Assembly (NCBI GenBank): GCA_021325635.1
Contig: JAJPGV010000054.1
Coordinates: 1-53,902 of the forward strand
Source: Chloroflexota bacterium
GTDB lineage: Bacteria > Chloroflexota > JAJPGV01
DNA: 53,902 nt
Direction of reading: 5' to 3'
Shown: piece by piece, positions 112-11,566 of the stretch
Layout: the number at the start of each line of letters is the position of its first letter
Numbering within the stretch: position 1 is the first letter of the stretch
Notes under the pieces: model-generated
Seen by the model: only the letters and a program-made list of their open reading frames with translations
Told to the model about the DNA's origin: nothing
Database searches by the model: none
Made by a program: the position numbers and the translations under genes

Positions 112-1572
112 TCATGCGCCCTTCTGGTTGAAAAGGTGTGGCCACTTGCGCAGCGTGGCCTCCCGCAGCGCCGGGCTGTTCACCGCTACCGGCGGAAAAT
201 CGCTCAGCCAGCGGTACGGCCGGCAGGCGTTGATCACCAGGTTGTGCGCGGTGTAGCTCTGACGGCCCTCCGTGCCCGGCAGGGAGCGGTCCTCGGGCGG
301 GATGCGCGGGTCGAGCTGCCACACCGCGTTGCCCGGGATGACCGCCACGCCATGCTCGGGCGCGCAGCGGCTGGCGATGGCCCACATGACCTCGTGAACG
401 TTTTCGACGTCGACGTCGTCGTCCACCAGTACCCAGATGTGGTGGCCGCTGTACTGCGAGCCGCCCGGCGACAGCGCCTGAATCACCTCTGCGACGTGGC
501 CTTCGTGCTGCTGCCTCAGAGCCACGACCCGCATGTTCGGCCGGGCCAGGAAGTAGATGCGCTGGATGCCGCCGACGCCTGATCTCTCCAGCCGCTCCTG
601 CCACTCGATGTCATCGTTGCCCAGGTTGGGGTTGTAGTAGCCGCCGACGGGCCGAGTGGGTGGCTGGCCGAAGATGATCGGATTGTCGCGGTGGTAGACC
701 GCGGCTATCTCGACAACCAGCTCCGGCCGGCGTCCATGCGCGTAGTAGCCGGTCCACTCGCCGAATGGCCCTTCCGGGATGAGTCGCTCCGCCGGTGAGA
801 CGAGAAAGCCCTCCAGCGCGATCTCGCCGTTCGCCGGGATCGGCAGGCCCGTGACCTGCCCGCACACGACCGGGTATGGGCTGCCGTGGATGTAGCCGGC
901 TACTTCGAGCTCGGATACGCCCTCGGGCGCGTGGTAGATGCTCGACCCGGCCAGCGCGGTGAGCACCGGTTCCTGCCCCACGGAGATCACGATCGGGCAC
1001 TTCCGGCCTGCTTGCCAGTGCTTCTGCGCGATGCGGTAGCCATGTTTCCCGTGCTCGATGAACGCGGCGCAGGTGTGCGCATCGGCGATCGACACTCGGT
1101 ATGCCCCGGCGTTCACGAAGCCGGTGTCCGGGTCACGATTGATCACGCACACCCCCGTGCCTATGTACCGGCCGCCGTCGTTCTCGTGCCACTTCGGCAC
1201 CGGGAATTTCGCGACGTCCACGTCATTTCCGGTCTGCACGTTCTCGAGAACGGCCCCGCAAGCCATCTCCTGCCAGGGCACCGGTTTCATGTCGCGCATT
1301 CGCCGCCGCCACTCCTGGGCCATGTCCCGAGGCTCGCCCTCCAGCCCGAGCGCGATGGCCGTGCGCCGCGCGCTGGTGTAGAGGTTCGAGGCCACTCGGT
1401 AGCCGCTGGCATAGCCGGGCACGTCGTCGAACAGCAGGGCCGGCCCGCGCCGTTCGGTCATCAGTTCGGTAAGCGCGCCGATGTCCTCTTGCCAGGTGGC
1501 CCCGGCGACCTTACGCAGCTCTCCCCGCGCGTCGAGCCGGTCGAGGAACTCGCGCAAATCAGTCCACAACAT
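112..1572 (-). CDS. UbiD family (de)carboxylase, copy 1
   Basis: This 486-residue protein matches the UbiD/Fdc family in length and motifs. These cytoplasmic enzymes use prenylated FMN to decarboxylate aromatic or alpha,beta-unsaturated acids. The cofactor/metal segment NAGAYR gives Asn154 and Arg159. The motif PEGPFGEWTGYY supplies the two catalytic glutamates, Glu267 and Glu272, so the Arg-Glu-Glu triad of the family looks intact. The ATG start at 1572 gives the usual UbiD N-terminus (MLWTDLREFL). It lies 98 bases downstream of the minus-strand solute-binding protein and is probably co-transcribed with it. No UbiX prenyltransferase is in the window, so the cofactor must come from elsewhere. 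The substrate is unknown; the neighbours suggest an aromatic carboxylate. A second copy with the same SBP-UbiD order lies at 28439-29896. Confidence 0.93.
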   Translation of the reverse strand: MLWTDLREFLDRLDARGELRKVAGATWQEDIGALTELMTERRGPALLFDDVPGYASGYRVASNLYTSARRTAIALGLEGEPRDMAQEWRRRMRDMKPVPWQEMACGAVLENVQTGNDVDVAKFPVPKWHENDGGRYIGTGVCVINRDPDTGFVNAGAYRVSIADAHTCAAFIEHGKHGYRIAQKHWQAGRKCPIVISVGQEPVLTALAGSSIYHAPEGVSELEVAGYIHGSPYPVVCGQVTGLPIPANGEIALEGFLVSPAERLIPEGPFGEWTGYYAHGRRPELVVEIAAVYHRDNPIIFGQPPTRPVGGYYNPNLGNDDIEWQERLERSGVGGIQRIYFLARPNMRVVALRQQHEGHVAEVIQALSPGGSQYSGHHIWVLVDDDVDVENVHEVMWAIASRCAPEHGVAVIPGNAVWQLDPRIPPEDRSLPGTEGRQSYTAHNLVINACRPYRWLSDFPPVAVNSPALREATLRKWPHLFNQKGA

Positions 1573-1660: not shown

Positions 1661-1683
1661 GCTGGTGCCGCTACTGCACCAGC
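1661..1683 (-). other. Hairpin at the SBP1 stop codon
   Basis: GCTGGTGC (1661-1668) and GCACCAGC (1676-1683) form a perfect 8-bp stem with a 7-base loop, overlapping the SBP1 stop. Only a short T-run (GCTTTAGG) follows on the minus strand. It could act as a partial terminator or mRNA stabiliser, letting the binding protein be made in excess over UbiD. That role is inferred. Confidence 0.35.
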
Positions 1684-2909
1684 TTCTGTGACAGCGACTG
1701 GGTCTCGCGCATGAACGGGTTGCCGGTCTCGGAGTTGAAGTCGATGTAGTCCTTCAGGCGGGCGGGGTTGGGCTTCGTCTCCGGGCTGCCGGCCGGCACG
1801 TCCAGCCGCCGGCTGTTGGTGTCGGCCGTCTTGGCCCAGTCGGCCTGCACGTCCTTGGACAGCAGCCAGTTGACGAACACCTTGGCCGCGTTCGGGTGTG
1901 GGGCGTGGTCGATGACCACCACGCCGCCGGAGCCCGGCGTGAGCACCTGGATCCTGGTCGGCAGGGTCTTCACGTCCTTGCCCAGGCCTTCGTCGAGGAA
2001 CGGGGCCAGGTACGGATCGACCACGCCGATGCCGATGGGATAGCGGGCGCGCACCACCCATTCGGTGAATTGACGCTTGTCGGTGCTGAGCACCGGCTGC
2101 TGATCCACCAGCAGCTTGGGCAGCGCATCCTCACCCAGCTCGCGCCGCAGAGCGGACATGGCCAGGGTACCCGCCCCGCCGGCTCGCGGGTCATAGATGA
2201 CGATCTTGCCCTTCCATTTGGGATCCAGCAGCTCCTGCGCGGTGTTGAGCTGGCTTTCCGGCACCGCGGTGCGGTTGACCTTGATCAGACTTGTGACGTA
2301 GGAGGTGATGGTGTAGACGTACTTCTTGCCCTTGTCGGCGAATCCGCCATCGAACCCGGCCAGCCAGTTGGCGTCGTTCAGGTTGTCCGGCAGCAGGACC
2401 TGTTCCTTGAAGGGCTGGAAGAAGCCTTTGGGAATGTAGGGGTACTGCGTGCTCACGCCGCCCACGAAGGCGTCCCAGGCGTACGTCCCGGCGGCTCGTT
2501 CGGCTTCCAGCCGCGGCATGAGCTGATCGGACGTCGTGCCGGTGTATTCGAGCTTGATGTCCGGGTAGGCCTGGCGGAATTTCATGATGACGCTGCGCTC
2601 TGCGTCCTGCGGCGGGCCGCCCAGCGTCAAGGTGCCCTCTTTCTTGGCGGCCGCGAGCACCTGGTCCCAGGTCGCGGCTGCCTCTCCGCTCGCAACCGCG
2701 ACGGGCTTCTGCGCAGTCTGCTCGGTGCTCTGACTCCTGGCGCTGGCTGGGCTCGACGGCGTGCCGGCGGCCGAGCCGCAGGCCGCGAGCGCCAGCCCCA
2801 GCGCGATTGCGCTGCCGATAACGGCGCTCCTGCCCACCGCGGACAGCTCCCTTCCGAGCTCTTGAATGCGTGGCGGGGTGTTCTTCTGGTCGAACATGCG
2901 GTGTATCAT
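1671..2909 (-). CDS. Extracellular solute-binding lipoprotein, ABC importer (SBP1)
   Basis: This 412-residue protein belongs to the FbpA/AfuA-like extracellular solute-binding family. A basic N-terminus and hydrophobic segment lead to the lipobox LAAC (Cys44), then an Ser/Ala/Thr-rich linker. The mature domain opens with WDQVLAAAKKEGTLTL, a family hallmark, and has the PKWKGKIVIYDPRAGG and HPNAAKVFVNWLLS segments seen in all six SBPs of this window. It should be a surface-anchored receptor delivering a solute to an ABC permease. No permease is adjacent; the only importer is at 18038-20850. The start is ambiguous: ATG at 2909 or ATG at 2897. A TATGAT element lies 7 bases before the 2897 ATG, so the message could be leaderless from there. 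Ligand unknown; aromatic acids are likely from context. Confidence 0.9.
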   Translation of the reverse strand: MIHRMFDQKNTPPRIQELGRELSAVGRSAVIGSAIALGLALAACGSAAGTPSSPASARSQSTEQTAQKPVAVASGEAAATWDQVLAAAKKEGTLTLGGPPQDAERSVIMKFRQAYPDIKLEYTGTTSDQLMPRLEAERAAGTYAWDAFVGGVSTQYPYIPKGFFQPFKEQVLLPDNLNDANWLAGFDGGFADKGKKYVYTITSYVTSLIKVNRTAVPESQLNTAQELLDPKWKGKIVIYDPRAGGAGTLAMSALRRELGEDALPKLLVDQQPVLSTDKRQFTEWVVRARYPIGIGVVDPYLAPFLDEGLGKDVKTLPTRIQVLTPGSGGVVVIDHAPHPNAAKVFVNWLLSKDVQADWAKTADTNSRRLDVPAGSPETKPNPARLKDYIDFNSETGNPFMRETQSLSQKLVQ

Positions 2910-2910: not shown

Positions 2911-2991
2911 CTCGCGCCACGGGCACGTTCCACGGCTGCCTGGCAGTCTGCGGACAGCGCCCGCCGGGAAACCTCGATCGAGAGGACGAAC

Positions 2992-4296
2992 ATGCTGACC
3001 CGAGAAGAAAACGATCTCCTGACGCGCACCGATCGAGGCACGCCGGGCGGCGAGATGATGCGCCGTTACTGGCTGCCGGCCGCGCTTTCGGAAGAGCTCC
3101 CCGCGGGGGCCGACGCCCCGCTTCAGATTCGGCTGGTCGGCGAAGACCTGGTGCTGTTTCGCGATGATGACGGCCGGCCAGGGCTGCTTGGCCTGCATTG
3201 TCCGCACCGCGGCGCGGACCTGAGCTACGGCCGGGTGGAGGACGGCGGCCTGCGCTGTGTCTATCACGGCTGGCTGTTCGACGTCAGTGGGCAGTGCCGC
3301 GATCAACCCGGGGAGCCTGAGGGCAGCGACTTCTGCCGCAAGGTTCGGCAGCTGTCCTATCCGTGCCAGGAGCTTGGTGGCGTGATCTTCGCCTATCTCG
3401 GCCCCGGCGAGCCTCCGCTGCTGCCGCGCTACGAGTTCCTCACCGTGCCTGAGGAGCAGCGGTTCGTCTCCAAGAACTACCAGGACTGCAACTACCTGCA
3501 GGGCAGCGAGGGCAATATCGACCCGGTGCACAACAATTTGCTGCACCATCCCAACACCAATCTCGAGCACACCGGGGTGGACGGCTACCAGGGCTTTCGC
3601 GGCGGCCGTGGTCCGGTTCCCGGCCTGCAAAGGCTGGATTGCGAGGTGACCCGCTTCGGCCTGGAGCTGTGCGACACCACGCCTGCTTCACCAGGCCAGG
3701 ACAACCTGCGCACCTACAACTTCGTCATGCCCAGCCTGACCGTTTTCCCCGGGCCCATGGGCGGCAAGCGCGGCTACTCCGGCAACTGGCACGTCCCTAT
3801 CGACAACGTGAGCCACTTCAAGTACACCTTCATCTTCAACCGCTACGAGCCCATCGACCGCGACCTGGCTCGCCGGCGGCTGGGCCTTGGCCTGAATCCC
3901 GATTACCGTCTGGTGCAGAACAAATCGAACCGCTACATGCAGGACCGCGCCGCCATGAAGACCCACAGCTACAGCGGCATCCAAGGCTTCGCGGCGCAGG
4001 ATACCTGGGCCATTGAGGGTATGGGCCCGATCTACGACCGCACTCAGGAGCACCTGGGCTACAGCGACAAGATCATCGTCGCCGCGCGCAAGCAGCTGCT
4101 GAAAGCCGTCGAGGACGTGCGCCAGGGCAAGGATCCTCAGCACGTGACCCGCGATCCCGCCGGCAACAGCTTCCCGGACATGGTCGTGTGGGTGGAGACG
4201 GTTCCCGAGGGCACCGACTGGCGGCAGTTCCGCCGGCAGGTGCAGGCGCAAATGGAGCAGGCGGCGGCTCAGCCGGCCGCCGCGCCGGTGGCGTAA
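2992..4296 (+). CDS. Rieske oxygenase alpha subunit, phthalate 4,5-dioxygenase-like
   Basis: A 434-residue Rieske non-haem iron oxygenase that would hydroxylate an aromatic ring using electrons from a separate reductase. The opening TREENDLLTRTDRGTPGGEM and the RRYWLPAALSEELP segment are typical of the phthalate 4,5-dioxygenase branch. The [2Fe-2S] ligands are present as CPHRG (Cys-x-His) and CVYHGW (Cys-x2-His). The catalytic iron triad is DPVHNNLLH (Asp-x2-His-x4-His). The ATG at 2992 is preceded by AGAGGA. It is the first gene of the long plus-strand cluster ending at 12792, which also encodes a Pht4-like dehydrogenase. No beta subunit is adjacent, as expected for this homomeric type. Substrate assignment to phthalate is inference. 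Confidence 0.9.
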   Translation: MLTREENDLLTRTDRGTPGGEMMRRYWLPAALSEELPAGADAPLQIRLVGEDLVLFRDDDGRPGLLGLHCPHRGADLSYGRVEDGGLRCVYHGWLFDVSGQCRDQPGEPEGSDFCRKVRQLSYPCQELGGVIFAYLGPGEPPLLPRYEFLTVPEEQRFVSKNYQDCNYLQGSEGNIDPVHNNLLHHPNTNLEHTGVDGYQGFRGGRGPVPGLQRLDCEVTRFGLELCDTTPASPGQDNLRTYNFVMPSLTVFPGPMGGKRGYSGNWHVPIDNVSHFKYTFIFNRYEPIDRDLARRRLGLGLNPDYRLVQNKSNRYMQDRAAMKTHSYSGIQGFAAQDTWAIEGMGPIYDRTQEHLGYSDKIIVAARKQLLKAVEDVRQGKDPQHVTRDPAGNSFPDMVVWVETVPEGTDWRQFRRQVQAQMEQAAAQPAAAPVA

Positions 4297-4337: not shown

Positions 4338-5138
4338 TTGGCAACAGTGACAATCCCGCAGCTCAACCGCATGAAGAGCGAAGGGCACAAGATCGTGGTT
4401 ATGACGGCCTATGACTTCGAGATGGCGCGCATCGTCGATCGGGCCGGCGTCGAAATGATCCTGGTGGGCGACAGCGGCGGTCGCTACGCGCTTGGCTACG
4501 AGAGCTTCAATCCGGTCACCCTGGACGAGATGATCCTGCTGACGAGATCGGTCAGCCGCGGCGCCAAGAACGCGATGGTGGTTGGCGATCTGCCATTCAT
4601 GTCATACCAGGTGAGCGTCGAGGATGCCTTGCGCAGCGCCGGCCGCATGATGAAGGAGGCCAACGCCGACGCGGTCAAGCTGGAGGGCGGCGAGGATTTC
4701 GCGCCGGCGGTTCGGGCGCTGGTCAAGGCCGGGATCCCCGTCATGGCGCACATGGGCATTACACCCATGATGGCCATCGGCTCCGGCGGCTATCTGAACC
4801 AGGACGTGAAGCCCATCGAAGACCAGATCCGCCGCGATGCGCTGGCGCTGCAGGACGCCGGAGCCTTTTCGGTGGTCTTCACTCGCGTGCCCCCACCGTT
4901 GGCGACCGCGCTGACCAAGGAGCTGCGCATCCCCACGCTGGCTGGTGGCGGCGCGGGCGACGATTGTGACGGACAGGTGTGCGTCATGCATGGCGTGTTC
5001 GGCCTCACCGTCGACGAGCTGGAGACTCCGAAGGCCATCTACGGCCCCCTGGTGAAACCCATCCTGGAAACGGCCGAGGCCTTCGTTGCCGACGTGCGCG
5101 CCGGCCGCCCGGTGCGATCCCGCCGCGACAACGCCTGA
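4338..5138 (+). CDS. PanB-like (ketopantoate hydroxymethyltransferase family) protein lacking the catalytic Glu
   Basis: A 266-residue TIM-barrel protein of the PanB family. Genuine PanB transfers a hydroxymethyl group to 2-oxoisovalerate in pantothenate synthesis. The metal ligands are in place: Asp45 (VGDSGG), Asp84 (VVGDLPF) and Glu116 (VKLEGG). In authentic PanB the general-base glutamate sits in VLECVP; here the segment reads VFTRVP, with Thr182 at that position. The glycine loop is also altered (LAGGGAG instead of IGIGAG). The gene sits between a Rieske oxygenase and a LigB-like dioxygenase, so it more likely acts as an aldolase/lyase-type catabolic enzyme than in vitamin synthesis. The TTG start at 4338 is chosen because AAGGAAG lies 7 bases upstream and the family N-terminus begins there. 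Confidence 0.85.
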   Translation: MATVTIPQLNRMKSEGHKIVVMTAYDFEMARIVDRAGVEMILVGDSGGRYALGYESFNPVTLDEMILLTRSVSRGAKNAMVVGDLPFMSYQVSVEDALRSAGRMMKEANADAVKLEGGEDFAPAVRALVKAGIPVMAHMGITPMMAIGSGGYLNQDVKPIEDQIRRDALALQDAGAFSVVFTRVPPPLATALTKELRIPTLAGGGAGDDCDGQVCVMHGVFGLTVDELETPKAIYGPLVKPILETAEAFVADVRAGRPVRSRRDNA

Positions 5139-5154: not shown

Positions 5155-6120
5155 ATGGCGCAGATTATCGCCGGCATGGCTTCCTCCCATGCGCTGGCGC
5201 TGATGGATCCCGATTCGTGGGATGACCGCCGGCGCATGACCCGCGGCCGCTTTCAAAAGGTCTATGGCTACGAGCCGGCCGAGCAGCCCGAGGTGGCCGA
5301 GCAGAGCCCCGAGTTCAGCAAGACGCACTACGCCAACATCGAGCGCGGCCTTCAGGATCTCAAGGCTCGCCTGGCTGAGCTGAAGCCGGACGCGCTGATC
5401 CTCATTGGTGACGACCAGAATGAGAATTACCGCCAGGACAACCTGCCTCAGTTCGCCATCTTCACCGGCGAAAGGGTCACGACCGTCGACCACGAGTCCG
5501 GCCAGAAGCGCGAGTTCGTTTGCGCCGCTGACCTTGCGCGCGACGTCCTCGAGCGCAGCGTGGAGAGCGGCGTGGACATGGCCTCCTCGGCCACCTTTCC
5601 GGATGGCCGTCTTCGCTCGCACGCCCATGCCCAGGTGCTGAATTACATGGACGTGCAGGTGCCTGTGGTCTTGGTCTTCGTCAATGCCATCAACGTCCCG
5701 GCGGCAACCCCGGCTCGCTGCTACGAGGTTGGGCAGCGGCTGCGCCAGGCCGTCGAGCAATCCGGCGCAGCCGGACGCGTGGTCCTGTACGCCTCCGGCG
5801 GGCTTTCGCACTTCACCTCCGGCTATCCGTGGCCGCACTACAAGGGGCCGCACACGCTCGGCTCCATTTGCCGTGACTTCGATGGCCGGCTCGTGGGCCT
5901 CATGCGCGAAGGGCGCTCTTCGGAAGTCGCCAAGCTGTCGTCGCTGGACCTGATCGAGAACGGTGACATCGAGTTCCGGCAGTGGATCGTGCTGCTGGGC
6001 GCGCTGGGCAGCGAACGGCCCGCCTGGCTGGAGTACGAGCCGCTGTTCCGCGGTCTCATCGGCATGGCGGTTGGGTACTGGCCGCTGGAGAGCCAGAGGA
6101 CACTAGCGGGCGCTCGCTGA
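5155..6120 (+). CDS. Class III extradiol dioxygenase, LigB-like
   Basis: A 321-residue protein of the LigB superfamily, related to the beta subunit of protocatechuate 4,5-dioxygenase, which opens catechol-type rings next to the hydroxyls. His12 (MASSHALAL) matches the first iron ligand. His219 (GGLSHF) matches the catalytic histidine. Glu273 (GDIEF) matches the acidic ligand. The second iron ligand, normally His in an N-D-H motif, aligns with Gln88 in IGDDQNENY. I recall related uncharacterised LigB-like proteins with a GDDQ motif, so this may be a subfamily trait. ATG 5155 follows a strong GGGAGGAGAAG. It lies 16 bases after the PanB-like gene and upstream of two meta-cleavage-type hydrolases, which fits a ring-opening role. 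Confidence 0.85.
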   Translation: MAQIIAGMASSHALALMDPDSWDDRRRMTRGRFQKVYGYEPAEQPEVAEQSPEFSKTHYANIERGLQDLKARLAELKPDALILIGDDQNENYRQDNLPQFAIFTGERVTTVDHESGQKREFVCAADLARDVLERSVESGVDMASSATFPDGRLRSHAHAQVLNYMDVQVPVVLVFVNAINVPAATPARCYEVGQRLRQAVEQSGAAGRVVLYASGGLSHFTSGYPWPHYKGPHTLGSICRDFDGRLVGLMREGRSSEVAKLSSLDLIENGDIEFRQWIVLLGALGSERPAWLEYEPLFRGLIGMAVGYWPLESQRTLAGAR

Positions 6121-6202: not shown

Positions 6203-7057
6203 ATGGCTGATATGACTTTGCGCTCTCGGTTTGTTCTGGCCGGGCGCATCCGCACGCACTACACCGAGGCCGGCGGCAACGGTCCGGCAGTCGTGCTGTG
6301 CCACGGCGGCGGTCCCGGCTCGTCCGGCGAGGCAGGCTTCGCGCGCATCATGCCGCTGCTGGCCGACAAGTTCCAGGTCTACGCACCCGATGGCGTGGGC
6401 GGCTTCGGCGAGACCGATCCCTATTGGCCCGTCAACGAGGGCACGCAGAGCCGCACCGACCAACTCGAAGCGTTCATCGATGCGCTCTGTCTCGACCAGA
6501 TTTGCCTGGCCGGCAACTCGCAGGGCGCCTGGGTAGCCGCCAAATATGCATTGGAGCATCCCGATCGGGTTCGCAAGCTGTTCCTCATCAGCAGCCTCAC
6601 GATCGCTGGGGCTATGGGTGTCCCGACGCCGGTTACCGAGGGCATGAAGGCCCTGCGCAGCTACGATGGCACGAAGCAATCCATGCGCCAGGTGATGGAG
6701 GCGCTGGTGTATGACAAGTCCGTCGTCACCGATCAGCTGATCGAGATCCGCAACGAGGCAGCCAACCGGCCGGGCGCTCCCGCGGCCAGGGACGCCTTCG
6801 AGCAGGGCCAGGCTCGGCTGGCCAAGGACCCCAACCTGCGCCTCAAGTTCGAGGTGATCCATACCCTGCCCCGGCTGGCCATCCCGACCGTCTTCGCCTG
6901 GGGCGAGCAGGACACCTTCGCGCCGCCGGAGATTGGACGCGAGCTGCAGAAGCTGCTGCCCAACGTGCCCTTTCACTTCATACCGAAAGCGGGACACCAG
7001 GTGCAGACGGACCAGCCGCAAGCGCTGGCCGACCTCATGCTGGCGCACTTCAGCTGA
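6203..7057 (+). CDS. Alpha/beta hydrolase, meta-cleavage-product hydrolase type (copy 1)
   Basis: A 284-residue alpha/beta hydrolase of the MhpC/BphD type. These enzymes cut a C-C bond in the ring-opened product of extradiol cleavage. HGGGPGSSG forms the oxyanion loop. The nucleophile elbow is GNSQGAW with Ser106. The acid lies in WGEQDTF and the catalytic His in AGHQVQ. The start ATG has GGGGAGAG upstream. It lies 82 bases downstream of the LigB-like gene and 19 bases upstream of a paralogue, so the pair may handle two different ring-fission products. Esterase activity is the alternative. Confidence 0.88.
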   Translation: MADMTLRSRFVLAGRIRTHYTEAGGNGPAVVLCHGGGPGSSGEAGFARIMPLLADKFQVYAPDGVGGFGETDPYWPVNEGTQSRTDQLEAFIDALCLDQICLAGNSQGAWVAAKYALEHPDRVRKLFLISSLTIAGAMGVPTPVTEGMKALRSYDGTKQSMRQVMEALVYDKSVVTDQLIEIRNEAANRPGAPAARDAFEQGQARLAKDPNLRLKFEVIHTLPRLAIPTVFAWGEQDTFAPPEIGRELQKLLPNVPFHFIPKAGHQVQTDQPQALADLMLAHFS

Positions 7058-7076: not shown

Positions 7077-7952
7077 GTGTCCACAGTCTTGGATTCCCAC
7101 TGGGTCGTCGTGCCCCAGGTCGCGGCCATGCGCGAGACGGTCTACGGCGTCAGGACCCATTACACCCACGCCGGACGGGGCGAGCCGGTGGTGCTCGTTC
7201 ACGGCGGCGGTCCGGGCTCGTCGGGCCTCAGCGGCTGGGCCAACATGATCCCCGAGCTGGCCCGGCGCTACGAGGTCTTTGCCATCGATCTCATCGGCGC
7301 CGGGTTCACCGACAAGCCGCGGGTGGAGTATTCGTTCCAGACGCAGGTGAACCACGTCGCCGGTTTCATCGACACCTTGAACCTTGGGTCCGTGCGGATG
7401 GTTGGCAACTCGCAGGGCGCTTACGTCGCCATCAAGTACGTGCTGGACCACCCGGGCCGGGTGAAGTCTGCCGCGCTGATCAGCACCGGTACGCTGGCCA
7501 AGGCGATGGGCTTGAGCGACGACGGAAAGGCTGCCCCGCTGCCTCGCTTCGACGGCACCAGGGAGTCGCTCGAGAGCTTCATGAGCCTGATCGTCAACGA
7601 CCCCAGCAAGCTGACGAAGGAGCTCATCGACTCTCGCTTCGAGGCCGCCAGCACTCCCGGCCATAGAGAGATGATGGAGTCCCTGGATACCTATCGGAAG
7701 GTCATGCAGTCCGATCCGAACCAGCGCCAGGTCTACGACGTGAAGGCTCGACTGCCCATGCTCACGCTGCCCTGGTGCATGATCTGGGGCGCGGCGGACC
7801 GTACGGCGCCGCTCGACCCGCTGGGCCACCGCATGCACGCCCTGTTCCCGAACATTCCCTTCCACGTGGTCGAAGGCTCGGGGCACCAGGTGCAGAATGA
7901 CAAGCCCGAGGAATGCAACCGGCTGGTGATGTCCTTCTTTGAGGCAAACTAG
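7077..7952 (+). CDS. Alpha/beta hydrolase, meta-cleavage-product hydrolase type (copy 2)
   Basis: A 291-residue paralogue of the preceding gene. It has HGGGPGSSG, the nucleophile motif GNSQGAY (Ser112), an acid in WGAADRTAP and a His in GSGHQVQ. The GTG start at 7077 is preceded by TAGGGAG. The order hydrolase 1-hydrolase 2 with a 19-base gap indicates one transcript. Both copies retain the full catalytic triad, so neither looks like a decaying duplicate. Confidence 0.88.
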   Translation: MSTVLDSHWVVVPQVAAMRETVYGVRTHYTHAGRGEPVVLVHGGGPGSSGLSGWANMIPELARRYEVFAIDLIGAGFTDKPRVEYSFQTQVNHVAGFIDTLNLGSVRMVGNSQGAYVAIKYVLDHPGRVKSAALISTGTLAKAMGLSDDGKAAPLPRFDGTRESLESFMSLIVNDPSKLTKELIDSRFEAASTPGHREMMESLDTYRKVMQSDPNQRQVYDVKARLPMLTLPWCMIWGAADRTAPLDPLGHRMHALFPNIPFHVVEGSGHQVQNDKPEECNRLVMSFFEAN

Positions 7953-8019: not shown

Positions 8020-8601
8020 ATGCCCTGGGAATACGACACCAACCTGTCCAAGGTGGTTTGGGCTATCACCTATCTGGGCGTGGCTACGGTCAAGGGCGTC
8101 TTCAAGGACGTTCGCGCCGAGCTCGAGATCGACGCCCCGGATCCGCGTCAGTGGCGAGTGGACGTGACCATTGGCGCCGCCAGCTTGCAGAGTGGTTACG
8201 ACCGCATGGACGAGCACGCCAGGAGCGCCGACTTCCTGGACGTCGAACGCTACCCGACCATTCGCTTCGTCAGCCGCCAGGTCCAGGTGCTGGAGGAGAC
8301 GGCGCTGCCGCTTGAGGGTCAGCCCGCCGGCGTCACCGCCTGGCAGCCACGTGCCGATCGCTTCTACCTTGGCGGCGAGGTCACCCTGCATGGCGTCACC
8401 CGGCCCGTCGAGCTGGAGGTGTGGTTCCGCGGCGAAGCCTCGGACATCCGCGGCCGTACACGGCGGGCCTTCACCGCCACCACGTCGGTGAACCGCGGCG
8501 AGTTCAATGTGAACGTGCCGCCGCAGGTGGATCCTGCCAAAACGGTCGTCGGCGAGCAGATCCGCATCTCGCTCGAAGTCATCGCCAACAAGCTTGGCTG
8601 A
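8020..8601 (+). CDS. YceI family protein
   Basis: A 193-residue YceI/polyisoprenoid-binding-like lipocalin-fold protein. It opens with the family signature WEYDTNLSKVVWAITYLGVA, followed by VKGVFKDVRAELEID and a repeated strand pattern ending in the duplicated region with GGEVTLHGVTRPVELEVWF. There is no signal peptide, so it is probably cytoplasmic, unlike periplasmic E. coli YceI. YceI proteins bind hydrophobic or amphiphilic ligands, and a role in handling a hydrophobic intermediate is only a guess. It lies in the middle of the catabolic cluster, 67 bases after hydrolase 2 and 29 bases before the dehydrogenase. Confidence 0.85.
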   Translation: MPWEYDTNLSKVVWAITYLGVATVKGVFKDVRAELEIDAPDPRQWRVDVTIGAASLQSGYDRMDEHARSADFLDVERYPTIRFVSRQVQVLEETALPLEGQPAGVTAWQPRADRFYLGGEVTLHGVTRPVELEVWFRGEASDIRGRTRRAFTATTSVNRGEFNVNVPPQVDPAKTVVGEQIRISLEVIANKLG

Positions 8602-8630: not shown

Positions 8631-9863
8631 GTGACCGATACGCTGAGGCTGGGCATCGCCGGGCTGGGCATGGGCGCGGGTCGAGTCATTCCCGAGATCG
8701 CCGAGCTGCCCTTCATCACCCTGACCGCCGGCGCCGACGTGCGGGAGCACGCTCGGCTGCAGTTCCGCGACGAGTTCAAGGCCGAGGTCTATGCCAGCGT
8801 CGAAGAGATGTGCGGCAGCCCCAACGTGGATGCGGTGTACGTCGCGACACCGCACGAGCTCCACGCCCAGCACGCCATCGCCGCGCTGAGCTGCAAGAAG
8901 CACGTCATTGTCGAGAAGCCCATGGCGCTGTCCATCGACGAGTGCGAGGCCATGAACGCGGCGGCCGAGGCCAACGGCATGGTGCTGCTGTGCGGCCATA
9001 CGCACAGCTTCGATCCGCCCGTTCGCAGGATGGCGGAGATCGTGCGCAGTGGCGAGCTCGGCGGGCCACTCATGATCAACAGCTCCTTTTACAAGAACTT
9101 CATCTATCGCCCGTTCTCCGATCACGACGTGGCCATGAGCCGCGGCGTCGTGCTCAACCAGGGGCCACACCAGGTCGATGTCGTGCGGCTCCTTGGCGGA
9201 GGCATGGTACGCAGCGTGCGGGCTTCGGCCGTGGCCGGAGATCCCAGCCGCGGCGAGCCCCCCGACAGGCCGGCCGAGGGCAACTACGTCTGCTACCTGC
9301 AGTTCGAGGACGGCCTGGCCGCCTCATTGGTGTTCGGCGGCTATGCCTATTTCGATACCGCCGAGCTGGTGTGGGGCATTGGCGAGGGCGGCCTGATCGT
9401 CGATCCTCAGGCCTTCGTGCGGTCGCACTGCTTCTTCGAAGAGATCGGCCGCGGGCCCGACCGCCGCCAGCGCATGGAGCGGCTGCTCGAATCCTGGCGC
9501 TACGGCGGCGAGCACGTGGGCGAATGGTTCCAGGCAGGCGCAACGATCGAGTCTGGCGGCAAGCGTCACCAACCCTTCTTCGGGCTCACGATCGTTACCT
9601 GCGAGCGGGGCGAGCTGCGTCAGTCGCCCGACGGCGTGTACGTCTACACCGCGGAAGGGCGGCGAGAGGTGCCTATCGCCGCGGGAGCGCACGGGCGCGA
9701 GGCGGAGATGCGCGAGCTGTACGAGGCCGTGGTGAACCAGCGTAAGGCCTTCCATGACGGCCGTTGGGGCGAGGCTACGCTTGAGGTCTGCCTGGCGATG
9801 CTCGAATCAACCGCTCAGCGCCGCGAGATCTACATGTCACACCAGGTGCCCGCGGCTGCCTGA
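8631..9863 (+). CDS. Gfo/Idh/MocA family dehydrogenase, phthalate dihydrodiol dehydrogenase-like
   Basis: A 410-residue NAD(P)-dependent oxidoreductase. The Rossmann motif GIAGLGMGAG starts at residue 8. The catalytic-lysine motif is EKPMALSIDE, followed by GHTHSFDPP. The N-terminus (VTDTLRLGIAGLG) and the VYVATPHELHAQHA segment resemble 4,5-dihydroxy-4,5-dihydrophthalate dehydrogenase (Pht4), which re-aromatises the cis-dihydrodiol made by phthalate dioxygenase. A phthalate-dioxygenase-like gene heads the same cluster, which strengthens this. The GTG start at 8631 follows GAAGG and gives the expected family N-terminus. The longer upstream frame is translated yceI sequence. Sugar or inositol dehydrogenase activity cannot be excluded. 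Confidence 0.85.
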   Translation: MTDTLRLGIAGLGMGAGRVIPEIAELPFITLTAGADVREHARLQFRDEFKAEVYASVEEMCGSPNVDAVYVATPHELHAQHAIAALSCKKHVIVEKPMALSIDECEAMNAAAEANGMVLLCGHTHSFDPPVRRMAEIVRSGELGGPLMINSSFYKNFIYRPFSDHDVAMSRGVVLNQGPHQVDVVRLLGGGMVRSVRASAVAGDPSRGEPPDRPAEGNYVCYLQFEDGLAASLVFGGYAYFDTAELVWGIGEGGLIVDPQAFVRSHCFFEEIGRGPDRRQRMERLLESWRYGGEHVGEWFQAGATIESGGKRHQPFFGLTIVTCERGELRQSPDGVYVYTAEGRREVPIAAGAHGREAEMRELYEAVVNQRKAFHDGRWGEATLEVCLAMLESTAQRREIYMSHQVPAAA

Positions 9864-9904: not shown

Positions 9905-11566
9905 TTGGCTGAACCGTCCCAACCGCCCACCGGATCATCGACGGACGTCTCGGACGCCGTCCGCCACTTCCATGCGGGCAACGCCGGCTGGCACCTGCAC
10001 GGCGACGGTTACGAGGACCACTTCCACGATCACGGCGATCCGCTCACGCCGGAGCAGATGGCCGCTCTCCAGGACGCGCTCTACAGGCTGGAGAACGTCG
10101 AGCTGACCACGGTGGGCGTTGACATCGGCTCCTCCACCTCGCATCTGATGTTCGCCAAAGTGCACCTCAAACGGTTGGGGGATTCGCTGTCCAGTCGCTT
10201 CGTCGTGGTCAATCGTGAGGTGCTGTGGCGCTCGCCTATCCTGCTCACGCCCTACCTGCCCGATAACCGCATCGACGCCGAAGCACTGGGCCGCTTTATC
10301 CATCAGGGCTACGCTGCTGCCGGACTGGACCGATCGAGCGTCGATAGCGGGGCCATCATCCTCACCGGCGAGGCGCTGCGACGCAGCAATGCCCGAGCCA
10401 TCGCCGACCTGTTTGCCGACCAGGCAGGCAGGTTCGTGTGCGCCTCGGCCGGGCACAACATGGAGGCGCTGATGGCCGCTCACGGCTCGGGAGCGGTCGA
10501 TTTGTCCCGACGGCTCGGGCAGACCGTCCTGAACGTCGATATCGGCGGAGGGACGACCAAGTTCAGCCTGATCCACAACGGTGAGGTGCTCCAGACGGCG
10601 GCGGTGGCCGTAGGTGGCCGGCTGGTGGCGCACTCGGACGGGCGCGTGAACCGGGTCGAACCGCCGGCCCGGCAGGTGGCGCAAGCGCTGGGCATCGATC
10701 TCCAGCTCGGCGCCGAGCTGGCCGCCGGCGACGGCCAGCGCCTGGTCGGGCAGTTCGCTGAGGTGCTCATGCAGTACATGCTCGACCTTCCGCGCTCGGA
10801 GCTTGCGACCGAGCTGCTGATTACCGACCCGCTGCGCTTCGAGGTGAAGCCGCAGGCGCTGACCTTCTCCGGCGGGGTATCCGAGTACGTGTATGGTCGC
10901 GAGGAAACCGAATTCGGCGATCTGGGCCGTCCGCTCGCTCAGGAGCTGATGGCGGCGGTTGCCGCCGGCCGTCTGCCGCTGCCGATCCTCGATCCGGGGC
11001 AGGGCATTCGGGCGACCGTTATCGGCGCCTCGCAGTTCGCCGTGCAGGTCAGCGGCAATACCATTACCGTGACCGACCCCGACGTGCTGCCGCTGCACAA
11101 CCTGCCTGTGGTCTTCCCTCGGCTCGACCTGGAAGAGGAGATTCTGCCCGACGCTGTGGCTTCGGCCCTCGATCAGGCGCTCGCGCAGTTCGACCTGCAC
11201 CCCGGGCACGATCCCATGGCCGTTGGCATCCGCTGGCGAGGCGAGCCCATCTATCCGCGCCTACGCGCGCTGGCCGAAGGCGTGGTGCAAGCGCTGGATC
11301 ACAGCATCGAGCACGGCATGCCGCTGGTGCTGCTGGTGGATGGCGACGTGGGCAACACCCTTGGGCGCATCCTCAGGAATGAGCTGGACGTGGACAGCCC
11401 GGTGCTGTCCATCGACGGGCTGGATCTGAACGAGTTCGACTATGTGGACCTGGGCGAGATCATCTCCCCTGCCAACGTGATGCCTATCGTCATCAAGTCG
11501 CTGTTGTTCAGCAGCGGTACGCAGCTGGCCGGCGATCACCACAAGGAGCCAGCGGCGGCCGGATGA
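9905..11566 (+). CDS. EutA-like ATPase (ethanolamine ammonia-lyase reactivating factor family)
   Basis: A 553-residue ASKHA-fold protein related to EutA, the ATP-dependent chaperone that reactivates adenosylcobalamin-dependent ethanolamine ammonia-lyase. TTVGVDIGSSTSHLMF is the phosphate-binding loop. SGAVDLSRR and LNVDIGGGTTKFSLI are the second loop, and VAVGGRLVAHSDG follows as in EutA. The first 65 or so residues are an extension with a cluster of seven His (HFHAGNAGWHLHGDGYEDHF and on). The TTG at 9905 is supported by GAGGAG eight bases upstream. No eutB, eutC or other B12 lyase is in the window, so its client is unknown. It could instead power a HyuB-type enzyme; that is speculation. Confidence 0.8.
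   Translation: MAEPSQPPTGSSTDVSDAVRHFHAGNAGWHLHGDGYEDHFHDHGDPLTPEQMAALQDALYRLENVELTTVGVDIGSSTSHLMFAKVHLKRLGDSLSSRFVVVNREVLWRSPILLTPYLPDNRIDAEALGRFIHQGYAAAGLDRSSVDSGAIILTGEALRRSNARAIADLFADQAGRFVCASAGHNMEALMAAHGSGAVDLSRRLGQTVLNVDIGGGTTKFSLIHNGEVLQTAAVAVGGRLVAHSDGRVNRVEPPARQVAQALGIDLQLGAELAAGDGQRLVGQFAEVLMQYMLDLPRSELATELLITDPLRFEVKPQALTFSGGVSEYVYGREETEFGDLGRPLAQELMAAVAAGRLPLPILDPGQGIRATVIGASQFAVQVSGNTITVTDPDVLPLHNLPVVFPRLDLEEEILPDAVASALDQALAQFDLHPGHDPMAVGIRWRGEPIYPRLRALAEGVVQALDHSIEHGMPLVLLVDGDVGNTLGRILRNELDVDSPVLSIDGLDLNEFDYVDLGEIISPANVMPIVIKSLLFSSGTQLAGDHHKEPAAAG

Follow-up and report, generated by a model that had tools for sequence, protein, structure and literature searches.

We examined a 53,902-nucleotide stretch of DNA (the window) and found in it a gene for a PanB-like protein that carries a threonine at the position of the catalytic glutamate of PanB. 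Its sequence and gene context indicate that this protein, rather than being PanB, is most likely a metal-dependent enzyme acting on 2-oxo acids in catabolism; it lies in a sister branch of PanB whose members lack the Glu and which probably has a new role. On balance, we lean slightly towards the broader proposal that PF02548 holds a second family, in which a Thr-for-Glu catabolic 2-oxo-acid enzyme regularly accompanies LigXa-type Rieske oxygenases, in two phyla or more, and serves an aromatic-breakdown step without an assigned enzyme.

Searches of an open-access library gave no description of a catabolic PanB relative or a catabolic PF02548 branch. The accessible portion of a study of nicotine catabolism explains the involvement of PanB there by pantothenate supply (PMC3891541). 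In the portions available to us, a paper on enzyme expansions in SAR202 does not mention hydroxymethyltransferase, COG0413 or UbiD (PMC6946804), one on a folate side-activity of PanB does not mention Glu181 (PMC4814558), and one on riboflavin catabolism includes Rieske, extradiol and aldolase steps with no mention of PanB (PMC12746152).

Sequence and modelled fold of the PanB-like protein

Table 1. Genes of the window around the PanB-like gene, with the matches that support each name
Feature	Position	Strand	Evidence
UbiD-family decarboxylase	112..1572	-	PF01977, 174.7 bits
Solute-binding protein, divergent	1671..2897	-	PF13416, 65.6 bits
LigXa-type Rieske oxygenase	2989..4296	+	PF00355 and PF19301 (LigXa_C); 41 bp upstream of the PanB-like gene
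PanB-like protein without the catalytic Glu (Thr182)	4338..5138	+	PF02548, 279.5 bits; Glu to Thr in alignments; model mean pLDDT 92
LigB-family protein (class III extradiol dioxygenase-like)	5155..6120	+	PF02900, 88.4 bits (cut-off 26.3); 16 bp downstream of the PanB-like gene
Alpha/beta hydrolase, HsaD/BphD-like	6203..7057	+	PF00561; NF045632, 136.5 bits (below cut-off of 400)
Second alpha/beta hydrolase, HsaD/BphD-like	7077..7952	+	41% to the first hydrolase
YceI-like protein	8020..8601	+	PF04264, 122.3 bits
Gfo/Idh/MocA oxidoreductase	8631..9863	+	PF01408; homologues in the G037 (76%) and G055 (53%) clusters

The open reading frame comprises 266 codons (266 aa) and begins with TTG, with AGAAAAGGAAG upstream; translation might instead begin at an internal GTG (4347). 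The PF02548 match spans the whole protein and lies far above the curated cut-off of 28.7. The protein also scored above the cut-offs of the NCBIfam model NF001452 (278.8 vs 272) and of the NCBIfam equivalog TIGR00222 (231.5 vs 207.55), the latter being a cut-off below which three other Glu-less members tested fell. Its match to PEP_mutase (PF13714) was below cut-off (19.2 vs 31.5 bits).

Alignment to solved PanBs and 92 homologues showed that D45, D84, K114, E116 and H138 are all present, which agrees, residue numbers included, with the claim of the preliminary description that the metal ligands Asp45, Asp84 and Glu116 are kept. In PanB, the positions of Asp45, Asp84, Glu116 and Lys114 serve the metal site. 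Where canonical PanB has VLExVP or VMEMVP, the window protein has VFTRVP, and its Thr182 occupies what we take to be the position of the catalytic base of E. coli PanB, Glu181. Among 93 distinct sequences including that of the window, 81 have Glu at position 182, 11 have Thr and 1 has Ser; a later alignment showed Glu there in all 81 canonical rows, whereas 15 of the 16 Glu-less rows had Thr and the remaining one Ser. The threonine at the general-base position, first noted from the window sequence, was thus borne out, and it is more than a chance change, since orthologues from two other genomes (57 and 55% identity) carry it as well. The active-site glycine loop had also been described as changed, and indeed the GIGAG of canonical PanB corresponds to AGGGAGDD, one residue longer. 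The proposed comparison with characterised PanBs added a further difference, the loss of the lid loop VQG[KR], where the window protein reads NQD. Gln at position 155 was found in 78 of 81 canonical rows vs 1 of 16 Glu-less rows; D45, D84 and K114 were kept in all 16.

The structure model, built with an alignment of 33 sequences (pTM 0.89), best matched M. tuberculosis PanB among solved structures (1oy0; Z 33.6, rmsd 1.8 over 244), followed by members of the PEP mutase/isocitrate lyase superfamily (Foldseek E about 1e-9, VIA Z about 19); the structure comparison returned nothing more specific than PanB and this superfamily. The window protein resembles PanB (EC 2.1.2.11; PF02548; 1oy0, 1m3u) in fold, full-length alignment, metal site, K114 and H138. 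It differs in the Thr for Glu, the altered GIGAG and VQG[KR] loops, its place outside the canonical branch, and the setting of its gene, which lies in an aromatic operon and not among pan genes, with a canonical panB elsewhere in the genome. With the PEP mutase/isocitrate lyase superfamily, where metal-bound 2-oxo acid chemistry is common and which includes 2-methylisocitrate lyase, 2,3-dimethylmalate lyase, oxaloacetate decarboxylase and phosphonopyruvate hydrolase, it shares the barrel fold, which in itself shows no function, but has about 12–19% identity.

A Glu-less branch within PF02548

At least 20 Glu-less PF02548 proteins (19 with Thr, 1 with Ser) were found; they come from 13 genomes, which belong either to the window's phylum or to Actinomycetota, the residue being called by alignment in 16 and by the motif in the translation in 4. 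Profile searches covering 400 genomes from the phylum of the window and five genomes of family f7 revealed three further Glu-less copies in the window's genome (on contigs C16, C49 and C31) and nine in other genomes (G037, G055, G006 and G184). At least four more were found among 296 genomes of Actinomycetota, the phylum of the genome (G400) that holds locus L010, and at least four among 394 genomes of the class of G478, besides G478 itself. These counts are lower bounds, because they come from those matches within an E-value limit that were read. A close-relative scan of genome contigs gave 32 loci, all canonical with Glu. Among the matches listed in plasmid searches with five Glu-less queries, all had less than 60% identity, and the five plasmid copies read (L067, L123, L124, L194 and L195) all kept Glu. 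Two genomes (G005 and G017) have a second PanB-type gene (L054 and L055) that keeps Glu and has an altered loop, GLGSGPHAHGQ or SLGSGPHAHGQ.

In an unrooted tree of 51 rows, a branch supported at 100/99 divided the 16 Glu-less rows from 35 of the 81 canonical rows, and the split persisted without the columns around window residues 114–118, 136–158, 178–187 and 199–216. Several unrelated losses of Glu are not supported, one branch separating the Glu-less rows; with the root unplaced, the tree does not decide between gain and loss of Glu. The window protein and those of G037 and G055 formed one clade (96/92), nearest the canonical side, and the other 13 a second clade. Gln in place of H138 and Asp in place of E116 each occurred in 12 of the 16 Glu-less rows, further differences of most of the 13-member clade, and position 180 was Asp or Asn in 13 of 16 but in none of the window clade, which thus has no substitute acid there. 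Given these differences at 116, 138 and 180, the chemistry of the two clades may not be the same. Placement of the long row L064 is unsure (AU p 0.362 for grouping with canonical rows). The gene of L064 (9011–10366, G000:C31), the most divergent Glu-less gene, is followed by a flavin-reductase-like gene, and a ring-cleavage gene is absent nearby. The Glu-less genes show no sign of decay: in six pairs dN/dS was 0.08–0.36, rough ratios as dS exceeded 1 throughout.

The genome of the window contains at least four PF02548 genes. A true panB, whose absence elsewhere in the genome had been named beforehand as evidence against a separate role, is among them: the C25 copy scores 381.9 bits, keeps Glu (VLEAVP) and adjoins a panC-like gene, the names panC and CoaX resting on recognised sequence motifs rather than on a family search. 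Eight other genomes with Glu-less copies each have one PF02548 gene of 364–395 bits besides lower-scoring ones, and a canonical panB accompanies the Glu-less copies in all nine genomes checked, out of the 13 that have such copies.

Aromatic-catabolic neighbourhoods

In the window, the genes for the LigXa-type Rieske, PanB-like, LigB-family, two alpha/beta hydrolase, YceI and Gfo/Idh proteins follow one another on the forward strand, and those for the solute-binding protein and UbiD are divergent from this operon (Table 1). The preliminary description had placed the PanB-like gene between a Rieske oxygenase and an extradiol dioxygenase; the position holds, and the second name is less sure, because alignments to 8k04 and 1b4u place a Gln (GDDQNENY) at the second iron-ligand His of LigAB/MhpB. 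H12 is kept; the LigAB His residues aligned here are presumably the iron ligands. The LigB-family copy at C49 has the same Gln with a His one residue later, and that of G184 keeps the iron-ligand His. In a comparison that leaves out the short loci L160, L161, L163, L165 and L166, the GDDQxEN form was observed in the window, in L063 (9845–10741) and in L164 and L167–L171 of the same genome, with the normal DH in at least one gene (L159). Since several other LigB genes of the genome share the motif, GDDQ marks a common LigB subgroup and not a lesion of the window operon.

Two further observations concern the window as a whole. An EutA-like gene (9905–11566; PF06277, 401.7 bits) lies in the middle of the aromatic cluster; EutA is named for reactivating ethanolamine ammonia-lyase. 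BLAST of positions 1–53902 revealed repeated families, with seven Rieske, six solute-binding, three cupin-like, two UbiD and two hydantoinase-B-like members.

We scored Rieske, LigB, UbiD, amidohydrolase and lower meta-cleavage genes within 6 kb of each PanB-type gene, and PanC separately. The control set comprised 38 canonical loci, of which 6 came from the window's phylum and 32 from genome contigs; most of the 38 belong to other phyla. An aromatic-catabolic neighbour was present at 12 of 16 Glu-less loci vs 0 of 38 canonical loci, and PanC at 0 of 16 vs 20 of 38. Because some of the reference proteins had been taken from Glu-less loci, the count was repeated on the nine that had supplied none, and gave 6/9 vs 0/38 (Fisher p = 7.8e-6; independence does not hold among the loci, the actinobacterial ones being close kin, and several contigs are short). 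At four of the 16 Glu-less loci (L064, L108, L112 and L114), no scored gene lay within 6 kb. The Gfo/Idh class was excluded from the count; the canonical locus L174 has a Gfo/Idh neighbour.

Three Glu-less genes are immediate neighbours of a LigB-family gene. One is that of the window; the second, at C49 in this genome, is 35% identical to it and lies between an amidohydrolase and a LigB-family gene; the third, in G184, comes directly after the LigB-family gene. In G037, the PanB-like gene stands beside a Rieske gene that is 79% identical to the window's and truncated to 104 residues where the contig ends, in a cluster that also holds an acylating acetaldehyde dehydrogenase, a 4-hydroxy-2-oxovalerate aldolase (DmpG-type; TIGR03217, 528.1 bits) and a hydratase-like protein.

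The order Rieske, small protein, PanB-like, alpha/beta hydrolase was found in seven of eight actinobacterial loci, one of which (L203) was read by tblastn; in the eighth (L155) the contig breaks off immediately before the PanB-like gene. LigXa_C was found in one of the actinobacterial Rieskes, and a LigK-like gene in 6 of the 8 stretches, that of L156 being LigK-type (TIGR02798). No LigB was recognised in the eight loci. The small protein in seven clusters (149–185 aa; L158 7755–8267, L156 8048–8605, L202 8210–8665 and homologues) has no Pfam match. Two related solute-binding-like proteins, which we take to resemble 4,5-dihydroxyphthalate decarboxylase, and an RpiB-like isomerase also accompany the cluster (L156 12547–15009, with homologues in other actinobacterial loci).

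In an all-against-all BLAST, the Rieske protein of the window operon was 35–51% identical to Rieskes near other PanB-like genes (219–385 bits), with 38–40% (253–272 bits) for the six actinobacterial ones compared, vs 30–36% and at most 172 bits for the six other Rieskes of the window. Because it is closer to its actinobacterial counterparts than to those of its own window, the Rieske and PanB-like genes appear to travel together, and in our view no other observation points as strongly to a shared pathway.

Possible functions and their implications

The protein keeps the PanB TIM barrel together with D45, D84, K114 and E116, which would form the site that chelates a divalent metal with a 2-oxo acid. 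With this site kept, it most likely binds a 2-oxo (or enol) acid from the Rieske/ring-opening pathway as a metal enolate. The C–C bond next to the enolate would then be broken, or in reverse made, in a retro-aldol or hydrolytic lyase step, both bond and substrate being guesses. The Glu that abstracts the C3 proton of ketoisovalerate in PanB would be dispensable for such cleavage, hence the Thr. As the metal site is kept and the base lost, our first choice, at a probability of about 0.4, is a catabolic PanB paralogue that cleaves a C–C bond of a ring-derived 2-oxo acid. A repurposed class II aldolase/lyase acting on a ring-fission product had been suggested at the outset. The repurposing is well supported by the separate branch, the canonical panB at C25 and the aromatic neighbourhoods in two phyla; the lyase activity is still conjectural and fits the kept metal site and the accessible part of a study in which E. 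coli PanB is a cofactor-independent class II (metal-dependent) aldolase acting on varied 2-oxo acids without folate (PMC7610986). It is weakened by the DmpG-type and LigK-type aldolases already present in the G037 and L156 clusters, by the failure to recognise a LigB in the actinobacterial loci, and by the missing iron-ligand His of the window's LigB-family neighbour; the first two disfavour a plain retro-aldol role on an extradiol product. The preferred reading is also weakened by the lack of a substitute acid at position 180 in the window clade, and by the four Glu-less loci at which no scored catabolic neighbour was seen. The DmpG/MhpE and LigK/ProA aldolases may perform an analogous retro-aldol step in these clusters, but they belong to different families (HMGL-like and RraA-like), and no sequence relation to the PanB-like proteins was seen.

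The same metal site and neighbourhoods are consistent with a metal-dependent keto-enol tautomerase, isomerase or decarboxylase of a ring-derived 2-oxo acid, a possible though less likely function. The aldolases already present in G037 and L156 would fit it, the next relatives of the fold include oxaloacetate decarboxylase and PEP mutase, and a reference title within the accessible part of PMC7610986 mentions that M. tuberculosis PanB catalyses enolisation independently of folate; the sequence, however, favours none of these activities over a lyase. An unlikely alternative starts from the steadiest partner of the PanB-like gene in two phyla, the LigXa_C Rieske. LigX is an O-demethylase, and such a Rieske could demethylate a methoxy group, the PanB-like protein adding the released formaldehyde to a 2-oxo acid. 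Hydroxymethylation needs C3 deprotonation, which we believe to be the task of the missing Glu; the lid loop is changed too, and O-demethylation by the window Rieske is only putative. In favour of this trap, hydroxymethylation is PanB's own chemistry, and wild-type E. coli PanB and its variants use free formaldehyde according to the available part of PMC7610986.

The lost base, the changed loops and the LigB neighbour that also lacks an iron ligand might instead point to a partner protein for the Rieske oxygenase or for the LigB-family protein, either inactive as an enzyme or with a regulatory role. We give this slightly less credence still, as D45, D84 and Lys114 are kept in 16/16 Glu-less rows and dN/dS is low. 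That the protein is a second functional pantothenate PanB tolerating Thr is very improbable: it clears both NCBIfam PanB cut-offs, but the same genome has a canonical panB next to a panC-like gene, the protein falls outside the canonical branch, all 81 canonical rows have Glu, and PanC is near none of the 16 Glu-less loci.

Cleavage of a ring-derived 2-oxo acid is thus the function we prefer, and the compact, conserved actinobacterial cluster may allow a bench test. Because the protein clears the NCBIfam equivalog cut-off, automatic annotation would probably label its gene panB, which would enter a false vitamin-biosynthesis gene into metabolic models and mask an aromatic-degradation enzyme. 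If the subfamily is real in function, it would represent a biosynthetic barrel turned catabolic by the swap of one acid, with the metal site kept, and would provide a defined and testable candidate for an aromatic step without an assigned enzyme.
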